Part shown: piece after piece, positions 1 to 26,372 of the stretch | Layout of the letters: every line of letters starts with the position of its first letter | How positions within the stretch are numbered: the stretch's first letter is position 1 | From: an uncultured Agathobacter sp. | Lineage (GTDB): Bacteria > Bacillota > Clostridia > Lachnospirales > Lachnospiraceae | Assembly: GCA_945910395.1 (NCBI GenBank) | Contig: CAMDYX010000020.1 | Coordinates: forward strand, 1-44,277 | Reading direction: 5' to 3' | DNA: 44,277 bases | Notes under the pieces: generated by a model | Databases searched by the model: none | Told to the model about the DNA's origin: nothing | The model's input: only the letters and a program-made list of their open reading frames with translations | Translations under genes and position numbers: made by a program

Positions 1-91
1 CGCAATGAATTGCTCATTAAGTGCCGACGCTTTTTAAACGTTCTGATTCAAATAGTAAAATTCATTTTCTGCAATAGAATACGAAAAGGGA
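1..91. repeat. Right half of 180-bp palindromic repeat (copy A, cut by window edge)
   Basis: Matches positions 219-310 of the complete copy B, including the central block with GTGCCGACGCTTTTT and the arm GTTCTGATTCAAATAG, and ends in AAAAGGGA. The outer part of the arm (about 73-85) has diverged from copy B. The left half lies outside the window. Copies A and B are separated by about 39 AT-rich bases. Confidence 0.85.
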
Positions 92-130
92 GATAAGAAA
101 AGCATATTATAAAAAACTTTATAAAAAATC

Positions 131-310
131 TCCCATTTCGGAAAAGTGTTCCCGAATGAATTTGCATATTTGAATCAGAACCCACTCTCGTTTGTAAAAA
201 GCGTAGCGGTACTAAATTCGCAATGAATTGCTCATTAAGTGCCGACGCTTTTTAAACGTTCTGATTCAAATAGCAAAATTCATTCTCGGGAACACAATTC
301 CGAAAAGGGA
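131..310. repeat. Complete 180-bp palindromic repeat (copy B)
   Basis: Arms of about 51-53 bp (131-181 and 258-310) are near-perfect inverted repeats, beginning TCCC and ending GGGA. The 76-bp centre is also largely self-complementary: AAAAAGCGT pairs with ACGCTTTTT, and CGGTACT with AGTGCCG allowing one wobble. The whole element can therefore fold into one long hairpin. It occupies the gap upstream of yggS and has no coding potential. No target-site duplication is evident. Confidence 0.9.
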
Positions 311-344
311 TTAAAAAATTATTCTAAACGAAAAAGGAAGTATT

Positions 345-3184: not shown

Positions 3185-3238
3185 TTATATATAAATTCAT
3201 GCTAGTTTTTAAAGTTTTATATTGGAGGGTTATTCATT

Positions 3239-3862
3239 ATGGGAAATGCAGTTTATACAATCGGACGAGAATTTGGAAGCGGTGGATTGGTAATTGGAAA
3301 GGCTTTAGCAGAACGTCTTGGGATAAATTTTTATGATAAGGAGTTATTGCAGCGAGCTGCGAAGGATTCCGGCTTTTGTCAGGAAATTTTTGAAAACCAT
3401 GACGAAAAACCTACGAATAGTTTTCTTTATTCGCTTGTAATGGATACATATTCAGCCGGAAGTTATTCCTCTGCGCCGTTTCTTGACATGCCACTCAATC
3501 ATAAAGTGTTTCTTGCACAGTTTGAATCCATCAAAAAAATCGCTGAGCAGGAATCCTGCGTAATTGTCGGCAGATGTGCGGATTATGCGTTGGCAGATAA
3601 CCCGGATTGTATCAATGTTTTCATACATGCGGAAATTGAGGACCGAATTAAGTGGATCAGCAAGCGTTTAAACATTACGGAAAATAAAGCAAAAGATACG
3701 ATTCAGAAGAAAGATAAACAGCGTGCAAGCTACTATAATTATTACACCAGTAAAAAATGGGGAGATTCACGCAGCTATGATCTGTCACTGAATACCAGCA
3801 AGCTGTCCGTGGATGACTGCGTGGAAATGATTATTAAATACAGGGAATTAATGAATAAATAA
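3239..3862 (+). CDS. Cytidylate kinase-like family protein
   Basis: A 207-residue P-loop nucleotide kinase-like protein. The N-terminal IGREFGSGGLVIGKALAERL (about residues 8-27) is the phosphate-binding loop in the form typical of the cytidylate-kinase-2-like family, followed by INFYDKELLQRAA. A later segment, CVIVGRCADYAL, resembles the conserved strand of this family. It differs from housekeeping Cmk in lacking the longer NMP-binding insertion, so the substrate is uncertain. The ribosome binding site GGAGGG lies 9 bp upstream. It is probably monocistronic, with its own candidate promoter and a strong terminator just after the stop. Confidence 0.8.
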   Translation: MGNAVYTIGREFGSGGLVIGKALAERLGINFYDKELLQRAAKDSGFCQEIFENHDEKPTNSFLYSLVMDTYSAGSYSSAPFLDMPLNHKVFLAQFESIKKIAEQESCVIVGRCADYALADNPDCINVFIHAEIEDRIKWISKRLNITENKAKDTIQKKDKQRASYYNYYTSKKWGDSRSYDLSLNTSKLSVDDCVEMIIKYRELMNK

Positions 3863-3892: not shown

Positions 3893-3918
3893 TTTAAATT
3901 TATGTGTTAATTTGATTA

Positions 3919-4098
3919 TCCCATTTCGGAATTGTGTTCCTGAATGAATTTGCATATTTGAATCAGAACCCACTCTCGTTTGTAAAAAGCGTAGCGGTAC
4001 TAAATTCGCAATACATTGCTCATTAAGTGCCGACGCTTTTTAAACGTTCTGATTCAAATAGCAAAGTTCATTCTCAGGAACACAATTCCGAAATGGGA
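3919..4098. repeat. Complete 180-bp palindromic repeat (copy C)
   Basis: Exactly the same length as copy B and about 95% identical to it, in the same orientation. Arms 3919-3969 and 4046-4098 are inverted repeats. Where copy B pairs GTTCCCGA with TCGGGAAC, copy C pairs GTTCCTGA with TCAGGAAC, so both arms changed together. It lies in the gap between the cytidylate-kinase-like gene and dtd. Confidence 0.9.
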
Positions 4099-4178
4099 GT
4101 TATTTATTGTTCGAAGTAAAAAACGAAATTAGCGCTTGCAAAAGTATAAAATATGGGTATTATAGTAATTGATGGTAC

Positions 4179-4260: not shown

Positions 4261-4713
4261 CTATATGGCCAAATCATCAGAATTCAGTATGATTGTAAAT
4301 GGACCATCATTTACCAAGGATATTTTCATTGCAGCGCCAAAGATACCGGTTTGCACATTGGGAATCTGTTTTTTGCATTCTGAGATCATGTATTCATACA
4401 TTTCCTTTGCAAAATCCGGTTTGCCTGCTTCTGTAAAGGAAGGACGATTCCCCTTCCGGCAGTTTGCATAAAGTGTAAATTGTGATATGAGAAGCAAGCT
4501 TCCATTTACATCCTTTAATGATAAATTGATTTTATCTTCAGAATCGGAAAAAATGCGAAGCCCGATCAGCTTCTGAATCATCTTATCCGCAATTTGTTTG
4601 GTATCGGTATCTGATACTCCAATAAAGACACAAAAACCTTGATTGATCTTACCGGTAATTTGGGAATCGACCTCGCAGGAAGCCTCAAGTACTCTTTGAA
4701 TAACAAATTTCAT
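4261..4713 (-). CDS. dtd: D-aminoacyl-tRNA deacylase
   Basis: A 150-residue homodimeric enzyme that hydrolyses D-aminoacyl-tRNAs (and Gly-tRNA-Ala), giving chirality proofreading. The N-terminal MKFVIQRVLEASCEVD is typical. The two active-site cross-subunit motifs are present as SQFTLYANCRKGNRPSF (about residues 77-93) and NDGPFT (about 135-140, the Gly-Pro motif). Length is normal. SD GGAGAG lies 9 bp upstream. It is divergent from the recombinase gene with 123 bp between starts. Confidence 0.94.
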   Translation of the reverse strand: MKFVIQRVLEASCEVDSQITGKINQGFCVFIGVSDTDTKQIADKMIQKLIGLRIFSDSEDKINLSLKDVNGSLLLISQFTLYANCRKGNRPSFTEAGKPDFAKEMYEYMISECKKQIPNVQTGIFGAAMKISLVNDGPFTIILNSDDLAI

Positions 4714-4735
4714 ATTCTATTACTCTCCTATACTT

Positions 4736-4764
4736 TTGTTAATGTTTTAACAATGTTTTATGAT
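4736..4764 (+). promoter_or_regulatory. Candidate sigma-A promoter for the tyrosine recombinase
   Basis: TTGTTA, a 17-base spacer and TATGAT, about 73 bp before the start codon at 4837. An inverted repeat, TTGTTAA-N4-TTAACAA (4736-4753), covers the -35 region and could bind a regulator. Confidence 0.4.
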
Positions 4765-4836
4765 ATGCAATACTCTTTTTGTATTTTACTAAATATGGAT
4801 ATTCAAAACAACAGAAATATCCGCGAAAGGAATTAT

Positions 4837-5886
4837 ATGAAGGAAAAAGCTTATTATGAAGAAGTAAATCGCGCAAATGAAATAAAGCTTCGTAACCTGA
4901 TAGGTGAACTACCACCCTTCTGCAAACAATTTTTTATTTCATTAGAAGCCACTACTTCTTCCCGGACAAGAATTGCCTATGCTTATGATATTGGGTGTTT
5001 TTTTAATTTCATTCATGATGAAAACCCAAAATACAGTAAAATGAAGGTTCAGGACTTTCCACTTTCTTTGCTGGATGAATTGACACCGATGGATATTGAT
5101 GAATATGTATCTTATCTTCGTTTATACGAAAAGGACGGAAAAGAACGCACAAATGAAGAACGCGGGCAAAAAAGAAAGCTTGCTGCCCTTCGCACCTTTT
5201 ATAATTATTTTTTCCGTAACGAACTGATTGACACCAATCCTGCTTCAAAAATTGAATTGCCAAAGACTCCGGAAAAAAATATTGTTCGATTGGATGTAGA
5301 TGAAGTGGCCATATTGCTTGATCAGGTGGAATCTGGAGAGGATTTGACAGAGAAGCAAAAGAAATACCATGAGAAAACAAAAGCCCGTGATTTGGCCCTT
5401 TTAATGCTTATGCTGGGCACCGGTATACGAGTATCGGAATGTGTTGGTTTGGATATCACGGATGTGGACTTTAAAAATAACGGAATAAAAATACATCGTA
5501 AAGGGGGCAAAGAGGTCATTGTATATTTTGGTGATGAGGTTCGGGATGCTCTACTGGACTATCTGGAAGAACGAAAACTGATTATCGCTGAACCGGGAAG
5601 TACAAACGCTCTCTTTCTCTCTCTTCAAAACAAGCGAATCGGCGTAAGAACGGTTGAAAATCTTGTAAAGAAATATACGAAAAATGTAACTCCCTTAAAA
5701 AACATTACCCCCCATAAGCTTCGCAGCACCTACGGAACAACATTATATCGAGAAACCGGTGATATTTACCTGGTTGCAGATGTTTTGGGGCATTCGGATG
5801 TAAATACGACACGGAAGCACTACGCCGAACAAGCGGATGATCGAAGACGCTCCGCTGCAAAAGCAGTTAATTTGAGAAAAATATAA
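4837..5886 (+). CDS. XerC/XerD/XerS-like tyrosine recombinase
   Basis: A 349-residue tyrosine site-specific recombinase. An N-terminal SAM-like core-binding domain (about 25-130) precedes the catalytic domain. All catalytic residues are visible: Arg198 (GTGIRVSE), Lys222 (HRKGGKE), His293 and Arg296 (HKLRSTYGT), His319 (LGHSD) and the nucleophile Tyr329 (RKHYA). The start chosen is the ATG at 4837 with GCGAAAGG six bases upstream; the frame stays open to 4639 but overlaps dtd. The protein is about 50 residues longer than XerC or XerD and closer in length to XerS. Chromosome dimer resolution is likely; an integrase role is possible, but there are no element genes nearby. Confidence 0.88.
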   Translation: MKEKAYYEEVNRANEIKLRNLIGELPPFCKQFFISLEATTSSRTRIAYAYDIGCFFNFIHDENPKYSKMKVQDFPLSLLDELTPMDIDEYVSYLRLYEKDGKERTNEERGQKRKLAALRTFYNYFFRNELIDTNPASKIELPKTPEKNIVRLDVDEVAILLDQVESGEDLTEKQKKYHEKTKARDLALLMLMLGTGIRVSECVGLDITDVDFKNNGIKIHRKGGKEVIVYFGDEVRDALLDYLEERKLIIAEPGSTNALFLSLQNKRIGVRTVENLVKKYTKNVTPLKNITPHKLRSTYGTTLYRETGDIYLVADVLGHSDVNTTRKHYAEQADDRRRSAAKAVNLRKI

Positions 5887-9300: not shown

Positions 9301-9390
9301 TCCCATTTCAGAAAAGTGTTCCTGAATGAATTTGCATATTTGATTCAGAACACACTTTCGTTTATAAAACGCGTTACGGGACTAAAGTTC
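9301..9390. repeat. Left half of 180-bp palindromic repeat (copy D)
   Basis: Matches positions 131-220 of copy B: the TCCCATTTC terminus, the GAATGAATTTGCATATTTGA arm, and a diverged centre with ACGGGACTAAA. The right half is missing, replaced by the terminator hairpin that follows. It lies between the 3' end of the LysM gene and the 5' end of the acyltransferase gene. Confidence 0.8.
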
Positions 9391-9858: not shown

Positions 9859-9876
9859 ACAAGATGTCCTCCGAAT

Positions 9877-9980
9877 CGAACAAATGTTGCGAACAAATGT
9901 TTGTTCTTTGGCTATACTATAATACACGAACAGATGTTTGTCAACAAGAAAATCGAACAAATTTTCGGAATATATGTTTG
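9877..9980. promoter_or_regulatory. Cluster of five LexA (SOS) box-like sites
   Basis: Sites matching the Gram-positive consensus CGAACRNRYGTTYG: 9877-9890 CGAACAAATGTTGC, 9890-9903 CGAACAAATGTTTG, 9927-9940 CGAACAGATGTTTG, 9954-9967 CGAACAAATTTTCG and a weaker 9967-9980 GGAATATATGTTTG. The first two share one base, as do the last two. Three flank or overlap the LysM-gene promoter; two face lexA. Confidence 0.88.
9916..9944 (-). promoter_or_regulatory. LexA-controlled sigma-A promoter of the LysM gene
   Basis: On the minus strand, TTGACA (9939-9944), a 17-base spacer and TATAGT (9916-9921). An SOS box occupies the spacer, so LexA binding would block polymerase directly. Confidence 0.8.
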
Positions 9981-10052
9981 CTTTTTATTATGTTATATGT
10001 TAGACTTAATTCATAGGATAAGAACACCTGTTTTTGAAAAGGAGGATGCTAT

Positions 10053-21017: not shown

Positions 21018-21139
21018 TCCCATTTCGGATTTGTGTTCCTGAATGAATTTTGCTACTTGAATCAGAACGTTTAAAAAGCGTCGGCACTTAATGAGCAATT
21101 TATTGCAAATTCATTCAGGAACACAAATCCAAAATGGGA
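21018..21139. repeat. Shortened, inverted copy of the palindromic repeat (copy E, 122 bp)
   Basis: Relative to copies B and C this copy is in the opposite orientation and lacks about 56 bp of one half; the join falls at a shared TGC. Both TCCC and GGGA termini are kept. The arms pair perfectly through CGGATTTGTGTTCCTGAATG-type sequence, with GGATTTG opposite CAAATCC where copy C has GGAATTG opposite CAATTCC. It lies between hisIE's terminator and the TIGR03960 gene. Confidence 0.88.
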
Positions 21140-26281: not shown

Positions 26282-26372
26282 TGTTTGAATGAATTTGCAT
26301 ATTCAAATCCGAACACATTTTCATATAAGCAAATCGCTTTAATACGTTACAGTACTAATTTGCTACCATGTT
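26282..26372. repeat. Degenerate half copy of the palindromic repeat (copy F)
   Basis: GAATGAATTTGCATATTCAAATC and the spaced blocks CGCTTTAATACG and AGTACTAATTTGC match the left half of copy B with many changes. No closing arm is present. It lies inside the predicted 5' leader of the his operon. Confidence 0.6.

Follow-up and report, generated by a model that had tools for sequence, protein, structure and literature searches.

A 44,277 bp contig assembled from an uncultured Agathobacter sp. (CAMDYX010000020.1; the whole stretch is here called the window) carries several copies of a palindromic intergenic repeat. When the sequence was first inspected, the arms of these copies were noted to change in step, and this was attributed either to selection on the folded form or to one arm being repeatedly copied onto the other. 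Changes of this compensatory kind normally count as proof of a functional RNA. Which of the two processes has shaped the repeat, and what kind of element is it?

Copies in the window

The two full copies, at 131–310 and 3919–4098, are as originally described: both are 180 bp, end in TCCC and GGGA and are symmetrical. They share 91% identity over 209 nt. The true length of the element is 182 bp, as one further base beyond TCCC and GGGA belongs to it at either end (Table 1). Each full copy folds as a single hairpin (z about −15, 200 dinucleotide shuffles) and the reverse strand also folds (z −11.9). The description of the copies as fully palindromic was nearly right, but the apical core is asymmetric. 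Among the partial copies, that at 1–91 is cut because the window is the whole contig, that at 9301–9388 is a 5′ half and that at 21018–21139 is a palindrome that has suffered an internal deletion, while the match at 26285–26358 is weak. Of the two pairs of compensating arm changes first noted, one is valid when the full copies are compared with each other. The other holds between the copy at 3919–4098 and the partial copy at 21018, but the arms of the copy at 131–310 are mismatched here (GGAAAAG versus CAATTCC). Consistent with the earlier reading of the window, no transposase domain was found in the 40 ORFs scanned of the 61 that are at least 100 aa.

Table 1. Copies of the element and their parts in the window
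Feature	Position	Strand	Details
3′ half copy (model 89–180)	1–91	+	profile match; truncated by contig end
Left 8 bp target duplication	122–129	none	TAAAAAAT
Complete 182 bp element	130–311	+	TCCC...GGGA at 131–310, with a variable base added on either side
Conserved core, first full copy	173–267	+	covariance model R1
Right 8 bp target duplication	312–319	none	TAAAAAAT, same as 122–129
Complete element no. 2	3918–4099	+	TCCC...GGGA at 3919–4098; target duplication gone
Conserved core, second full copy	3961–4055	+	covariance model
5′ half copy (model 1–88)	9301–9388	+	profile match
Copy with internal deletion	21018–21139	−	palindrome kept
Degenerate partial copy, weak (model 22–85)	26285–26358	+	nhmmer E 4.6e-4
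Element ends			CTCCCNTTTCGGAANNGTGTTCC

A MITE-like family with 8 bp target duplications

The expectation that six copies in 44 kb reflect a large genomic family was borne out. When a pattern common to both arms was used to query the source genome with up to three mismatches, 462 matches (229+233) were returned, and none with the reversed control. We therefore estimate about 200 or more elements; the figure is approximate because a single arm match stands for roughly half of an element and some copies are themselves only halves. Approximately half a megabase of the source genome provided 82 distinct near-full copies, and later a set of 127 parsed copies, none of which lies inside a called ORF.

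The AT-rich bias of the flanks ends approximately 10 bases out from the element, and a shift test located 8 bp direct repeats that are separated from TCCC and GGGA by a single base. Where both ends of a copy are intact (73 copies), the two 8 bp segments share an identity of 0.705 compared with 0.443 after shuffling (z 13.4). They are perfect in 16/73 copies, and in 28/73 they match at 7 or more of the 8 bases, versus 1.7 after shuffling. The target duplications that the original prediction proposed to look for are thus present, and the duplicated target is an AT-rich 8 bp sequence. Short, present in many copies, without a transposase gene, and with a fixed-length target duplication at inverted-repeat ends, the repeats behave like non-autonomous transposons and, as a repeat, the element is a MITE-like palindrome. 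Of the two marks of an ordinary MITE that had been set against a special role for the fold, target duplications and a cognate transposase, the first was found and the second was not.

Of the other 61 genomes in the genus, 15 contain the same ends, and 13 of these 15 have no match to the core described below; the reversed control gave one match. At the loci examined, including those in the 89% complete source genome, these ends were seen only around cargo or non-coding elements. The cargo elements, at L226, L227, L232, L234 and L235, are approximately 0.4–1 kb, and no transposase was seen in them. All five have 8 bp duplications, with perfect repeats at L226, L227 and L235 but imperfect ones at L232 and L234, and two of the cargo ORFs are acetyltransferase-like by eye. 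A second non-autonomous family of approximately 370 bp, with the same ends but without the core, is present in the source genome (L398, L406, L396, L399 and L048), and its copy at 1274–1659 of L048 is flanked by a perfect TTTTTCAA duplication.

The ends behave like the inverted repeats that terminate a cut-and-paste transposon, and a putative transposase acting in trans would have spread the 182 bp unit, the duplications and copy number of which are observed, to about 200 or more places in the source genome. Searches for IS66 (PF03050, 8 genomes), IS256 (PF00872, 26 genomes), ISL3 and IS1595 (PF01610 and PF12762, 17 genomes) and Y1 (PF01797, 26 genomes) transposases found none in the source genome, a draft that is 89% complete, and some of these five families are present in other core-bearing genomes. 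As the draft source genome includes no matching transposase, derivation from IS66, IS256, ISL3 or IS1595 was rejected. IS66 had looked attractive because the ends in genome G004 begin with GTAA, yet G004 and G347 are without IS66. Inspection by eye of 19 places in the source genome with a lone end, and one further place, revealed no autonomous element and no transposase; the same 20 places yielded full copies, deletion derivatives and the approximately 370 bp family. The end pattern was found in four stretches of viral contigs and the core pattern in none, and the plasmids and phages searched returned no match to the element.

Probable arm-to-arm copying

In the 82 near-full copies, double changes at paired arm positions number 152, compared with 62.6 expected under independence, and 120 of the 152 keep Watson–Crick pairing. 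The arm covariation first noticed in a few copies is therefore a property of the wider set. The two arms also differ from each other by small shifts at two places, and these were used to follow each arm in 88 copies, with states scored by fuzzy matching that leaves some calls uncertain. At site 1, 75 copies have the normal left and right forms, both arms are of the left form in two and of the right form in another two, and nine were not assigned. At site 2 the corresponding numbers are 54, eight, five and 21. Hence, the same form is on both arms in 4/88 and 13/88 copies, respectively. In some copies private variants beside the site are common to both arms (for example, L039 near 3215–3396 and L073 near 1739–1920), and the copied tracts contain indels. 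Compensated changes cluster within copies, with 53 co-occurrences within three pairs versus an average of 26 and at most 42 with copy totals held constant, though the clustering is partly due to shared descent, as five of the eight clustering copies listed carry an identical change set.

When 193 elements from many genomes were examined, the arms were paired over at least 20 bp in 181 (median 54, shuffled median 14), and arm mismatches showed no excess of G·T (289) over A·C (329). Of the two original explanations, arm copying is the better supported, because tracts with indels and private variants have been copied, compensated changes cluster and the 193 elements lack a G·T excess. Selection on a fold finds support in the apical core, which had not been singled out. 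The arm covariation looks mainly like a by-product of arm-to-arm copying. This most likely occurs via template switching during replication of the hairpin; the copied tracts are visible in the sequences, and the polymerase mechanism is what we infer from them. Template switching at quasipalindromes makes the arms of inverted repeats alike (PMC8604942, PMC8794818); the cases shown there are in yeast genes and RNA genes, whereas here the substrate is a dispersed bacterial element.

Selection on the whole hairpin as an RNA, for example as a terminator, mRNA stabiliser or RNase III site, would also generate covarying arms. Copies in the source genome tend to follow stop codons closely, the upstream stop codon being the nearer feature in 37/52 and 15/22 tandem cases, and in tandem contexts their orientation agrees with that of the genes 43:9 in the first sample and 14:8 in an independent one (p 0.29); single arm changes in this genome include a mild G·T excess (147 versus 99 A·C). 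However, orientation to genes is unbiased in other genomes (43:46), the G·T excess is not seen in the larger set of 193 elements, indel tracts have passed between arms, and most arm-pair changes between the orthologous elements of G086 and G123 (see below) are one-sided and break pairing. We consider it very unlikely that whole-hairpin selection caused the arm covariation. A sense-orientation function was likewise dropped as main evidence, given the 14:8 and 43:46 ratios.

A conserved core at the tip

The tip of the element is a core of approximately 80 nt with a two-base-pair mini-hairpin, a bulged stem and a TAA/TAA loop. It folds as a three-way junction of the arm stem, the mini-hairpin and the bulged main stem, which includes the TAA/TAA internal loop. 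The 5′ part of the consensus, derived by eye, is GACACGC-TYTC-GCTC, a variable stem P3, CGTARCGGTAC, TAA and stem P5, and the 3′ part is the P5 loop, often AAAANAC, followed by TAA, GTACCGACG, P3′ and AAGGTC.

Some weak matches to the element in relatives span only its middle, and each of these is a palindrome with different arms. A covariance model built from the middle of 13 sequences detected the core in 17/62 genomes of the genus and 28/295 genomes of the order, the source included in both; all 28 belong to its own family and they represent 14/130 genera. Copy numbers per genome are lower bounds, as scoring had a cap for each genome. Palindromes whose arms are unrelated in sequence carry this core at their tip, and their ends differ too. 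Among the matches listed, the records are from gut or rumen and carry the titles Lachnospiraceae or genera usually placed there; other titles among them are Clostridiales, Clostridium, Eubacteriaceae or similar, and one Gastranaerophilales MAG. Outside the source genome, simple ORF calls placed 12 cores within ORFs and 146 in intergenic regions.

The mini-hairpin at the 5′ junction occurs with the pair sets GC/GC, GT/AC, AC/GT and AT/AT and is fully Watson–Crick in 170 of 183 distinct cores. In 82 representatives that are <80% identical, 12 of the 14 core pairs tested beat all 1000 partner shuffles, which ignore relatedness among cores, and the remaining two were reached by 1 and 13 of the 1000 shuffles. 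P4 pairs 9–11 were omitted as insertions shift them.

An Rfam scan of the window and 114 loci, a few of them overlapping, found no credible family on a core. The one match over a core, mir-1271, is at chance level (21.8 bits, cut-off 80.5), and membership of a known Rfam RNA family was rejected since cores in the window and the 114 loci are below the gathering score. No description of this family was found in the literature searched, which included few subscription papers. The core is a widespread gut and rumen motif, found neither in Rfam nor in that literature, that is conserved at fixed sites.

Constraint on the core at fixed sites

Species G086 and G123, the pair to which the orthologue comparison applies as further genomes of their genus gave no syntenic pair, were compared at 13 G086 loci; the corresponding G123 site was seen for 10 of these, and at all 10 both species carry the element, giving 11 orthologous elements. 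Comparison of these revealed changes at 34/892 core positions versus 138/1007 arm positions. A single locus, L200/L207, supplies 19 of the 34 core changes (19 of its 81 positions), and without it the figures are 15/811 and 117/914. Flanking windows, coding sequence included, have identities of 0.65–0.98. The element at L200/L207 has changed far more than its left flank and includes several compensated changes; a replacement or a burst of mutation is possible there.

As cores differ between loci of the same genome, homogenisation among loci is unlikely to be the cause of the slow change. At most G086 loci the arms are unrelated to one another, and the insertions therefore look old and fixed. 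That the tip is common to many gut and rumen bacteria and has been preserved in place suggests that the core has a function.

The core could instead be the ancestral centre of a functionless MITE that looks conserved since the copies are young or the transposase binds it. Target duplications, high copy number, the lack of an ORF and the presence in the source genome of another non-autonomous family bounded by these ends fit such an element, but it does not account for a core that is held in common by elements with differing ends and arms, or for one that is nearly unchanged at fixed sites in two related species while the arms change. On this evidence a functionless MITE appears rather unlikely. 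We consider it reasonably likely that this is a once-mobile hairpin family, mostly intergenic and spread across Lachnospiraceae, with three layers: transposon ends, self-copying arms and a constrained tip. The sequence of the arms would be little constrained and changes in one would be repeatedly copied onto the other, so that complementarity is retained even though the arms of different lineages rapidly become dissimilar. The tip, which covaries and changes slowly, would be conserved in its folded, single-stranded form and constrained in place. The novelty lies in a constrained tip that is shared among elements with differing arms and ends, and in a clear case of compensatory arm change that is mainly a by-product of copying. 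A single element thus offers both arm covariation that is better explained by copying and a core under constraint, and is a natural test bed for distinguishing the two.

RNA or single-stranded DNA

The core most likely acts as a structured RNA, otherwise as a protein-binding fold of single-stranded DNA, and the evidence on this point is mixed. In P3, G·T exceeds A·C (49 versus 21 summed over representatives, 54 versus 17 in the count of 183 cores). In P4 the numbers are 46 and 9, but one pair contributes 43 of the G·T and without it they are 3 and 9. One-sided changes in the orthologous core pairs of G086 and G123 are A·C in six cases and G·T in one.

Of 15 distinct pairs of cores <400 bp apart, 14 are convergent, one is in the same direction and none is divergent, though several of these loci were chosen because pairs showed in the match list. 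Together with a bulged hairpin that has conserved unpaired bases, this arrangement would fit a single-stranded DNA fold recognised by a recombinase or an HUH-type transposase, comparable to REP doublets or integron attC sites; the core resembles attC only in folded-site recognition. Against it, PF01797 is absent from the source genome and is present in 5/16 core-bearing genomes (absent from 11/16) versus 6/10 core-free genomes, and 8 bp target duplications do not fit HUH/Y1 chemistry. We regard this as unlikely, and a structured RNA as the preferred role.

In genome G295, the convergent pairs at L186, L187 and L188 are of two different core subtypes, and inspection by eye shows a third inverted repeat surrounding the pair at L186.

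Proximity to TwoAYGGAY

At four loci (L303, L151, L167 and L211) the TwoAYGGAY motif (RF01731) follows a core on the same strand, at a distance of 89–145 nt downstream. These are the only TwoAYGGAY matches in the 114 core-bearing loci, a few of which overlap (approximately 426 kb). In the three loci folded, TwoAYGGAY is the tip of its own long palindrome. It resembles the core in being a structured Clostridiales motif at a palindrome tip that adjoins a core, but its own core is different and the cores here fail to match the TwoAYGGAY model. TwoAYGGAY was published as a probable structured RNA that is not cis-regulatory (PMC2864571), and CsrA has been put forward as its binding partner (PMC4333381). 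TwoAYGGAY also prompted the idea that the core binds CsrA, which was rejected: in the list of loop types for 183 cores, the loop AAGGA appears six times.

Tentatively, the core and TwoAYGGAY may be one bipartite genetic system, with a functional core carried throughout Lachnospiraceae by self-templating palindromes; we hold this as a possibility that is more doubtful than the three-layer family itself. The arms would be rewritten freely and kept paired by copying, the ends would vary by lineage and selection would preserve the tip, which is often in convergent doublets and sometimes beside TwoAYGGAY. In either case, the adjacent core gives TwoAYGGAY, an orphan RNA, a genomic neighbour to test.

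Comparison with known repeat families

REP/REPIN elements with their RAYT are hairpins that are often found in inverted doublets and in many copies, and doublets are seen here as pairs of cores. However, the element has much longer stems and 8 bp target duplications, and membership of this group was rejected as RAYT (Y1_Tnp, PF01797) is absent from the source genome. The target duplication of bcr1–bcr3 is 5 bp, compared with 8 bp here. We know of no core or ends that ERIC/YPAL has in common with the element.

The ERIC/YPAL repeats of enterobacteria are, like the element, intergenic repeats that fold as long hairpins; they have model lengths of 115–168 bp and up to 241 copies, and a family-wide core with exchanged arms is not among the features described in the available part of that account (PMC2267715). 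The bcr1–bcr3 repeats are also MITE-like and are often in transcribed UTRs and operon gaps (PMC3446304), but they are restricted to the Bacillus cereus group and have a different sequence.

Some further features were observed near cores or in the window. At 987–2355 of L190 in genome G066, two convergent core hairpins flank a 261 aa ORF that is methyltransferase-like by eye. In the window, a gene for a phage-integrase-family (tyrosine) recombinase is at 4639–5883, near the copy at 3919–4098. Between a LysM gene and lexA, at 9874–9986, a 36 nt repeat with GAAC...GTTC boxes is present twice, and we presume that these repeats are LexA-binding sites.
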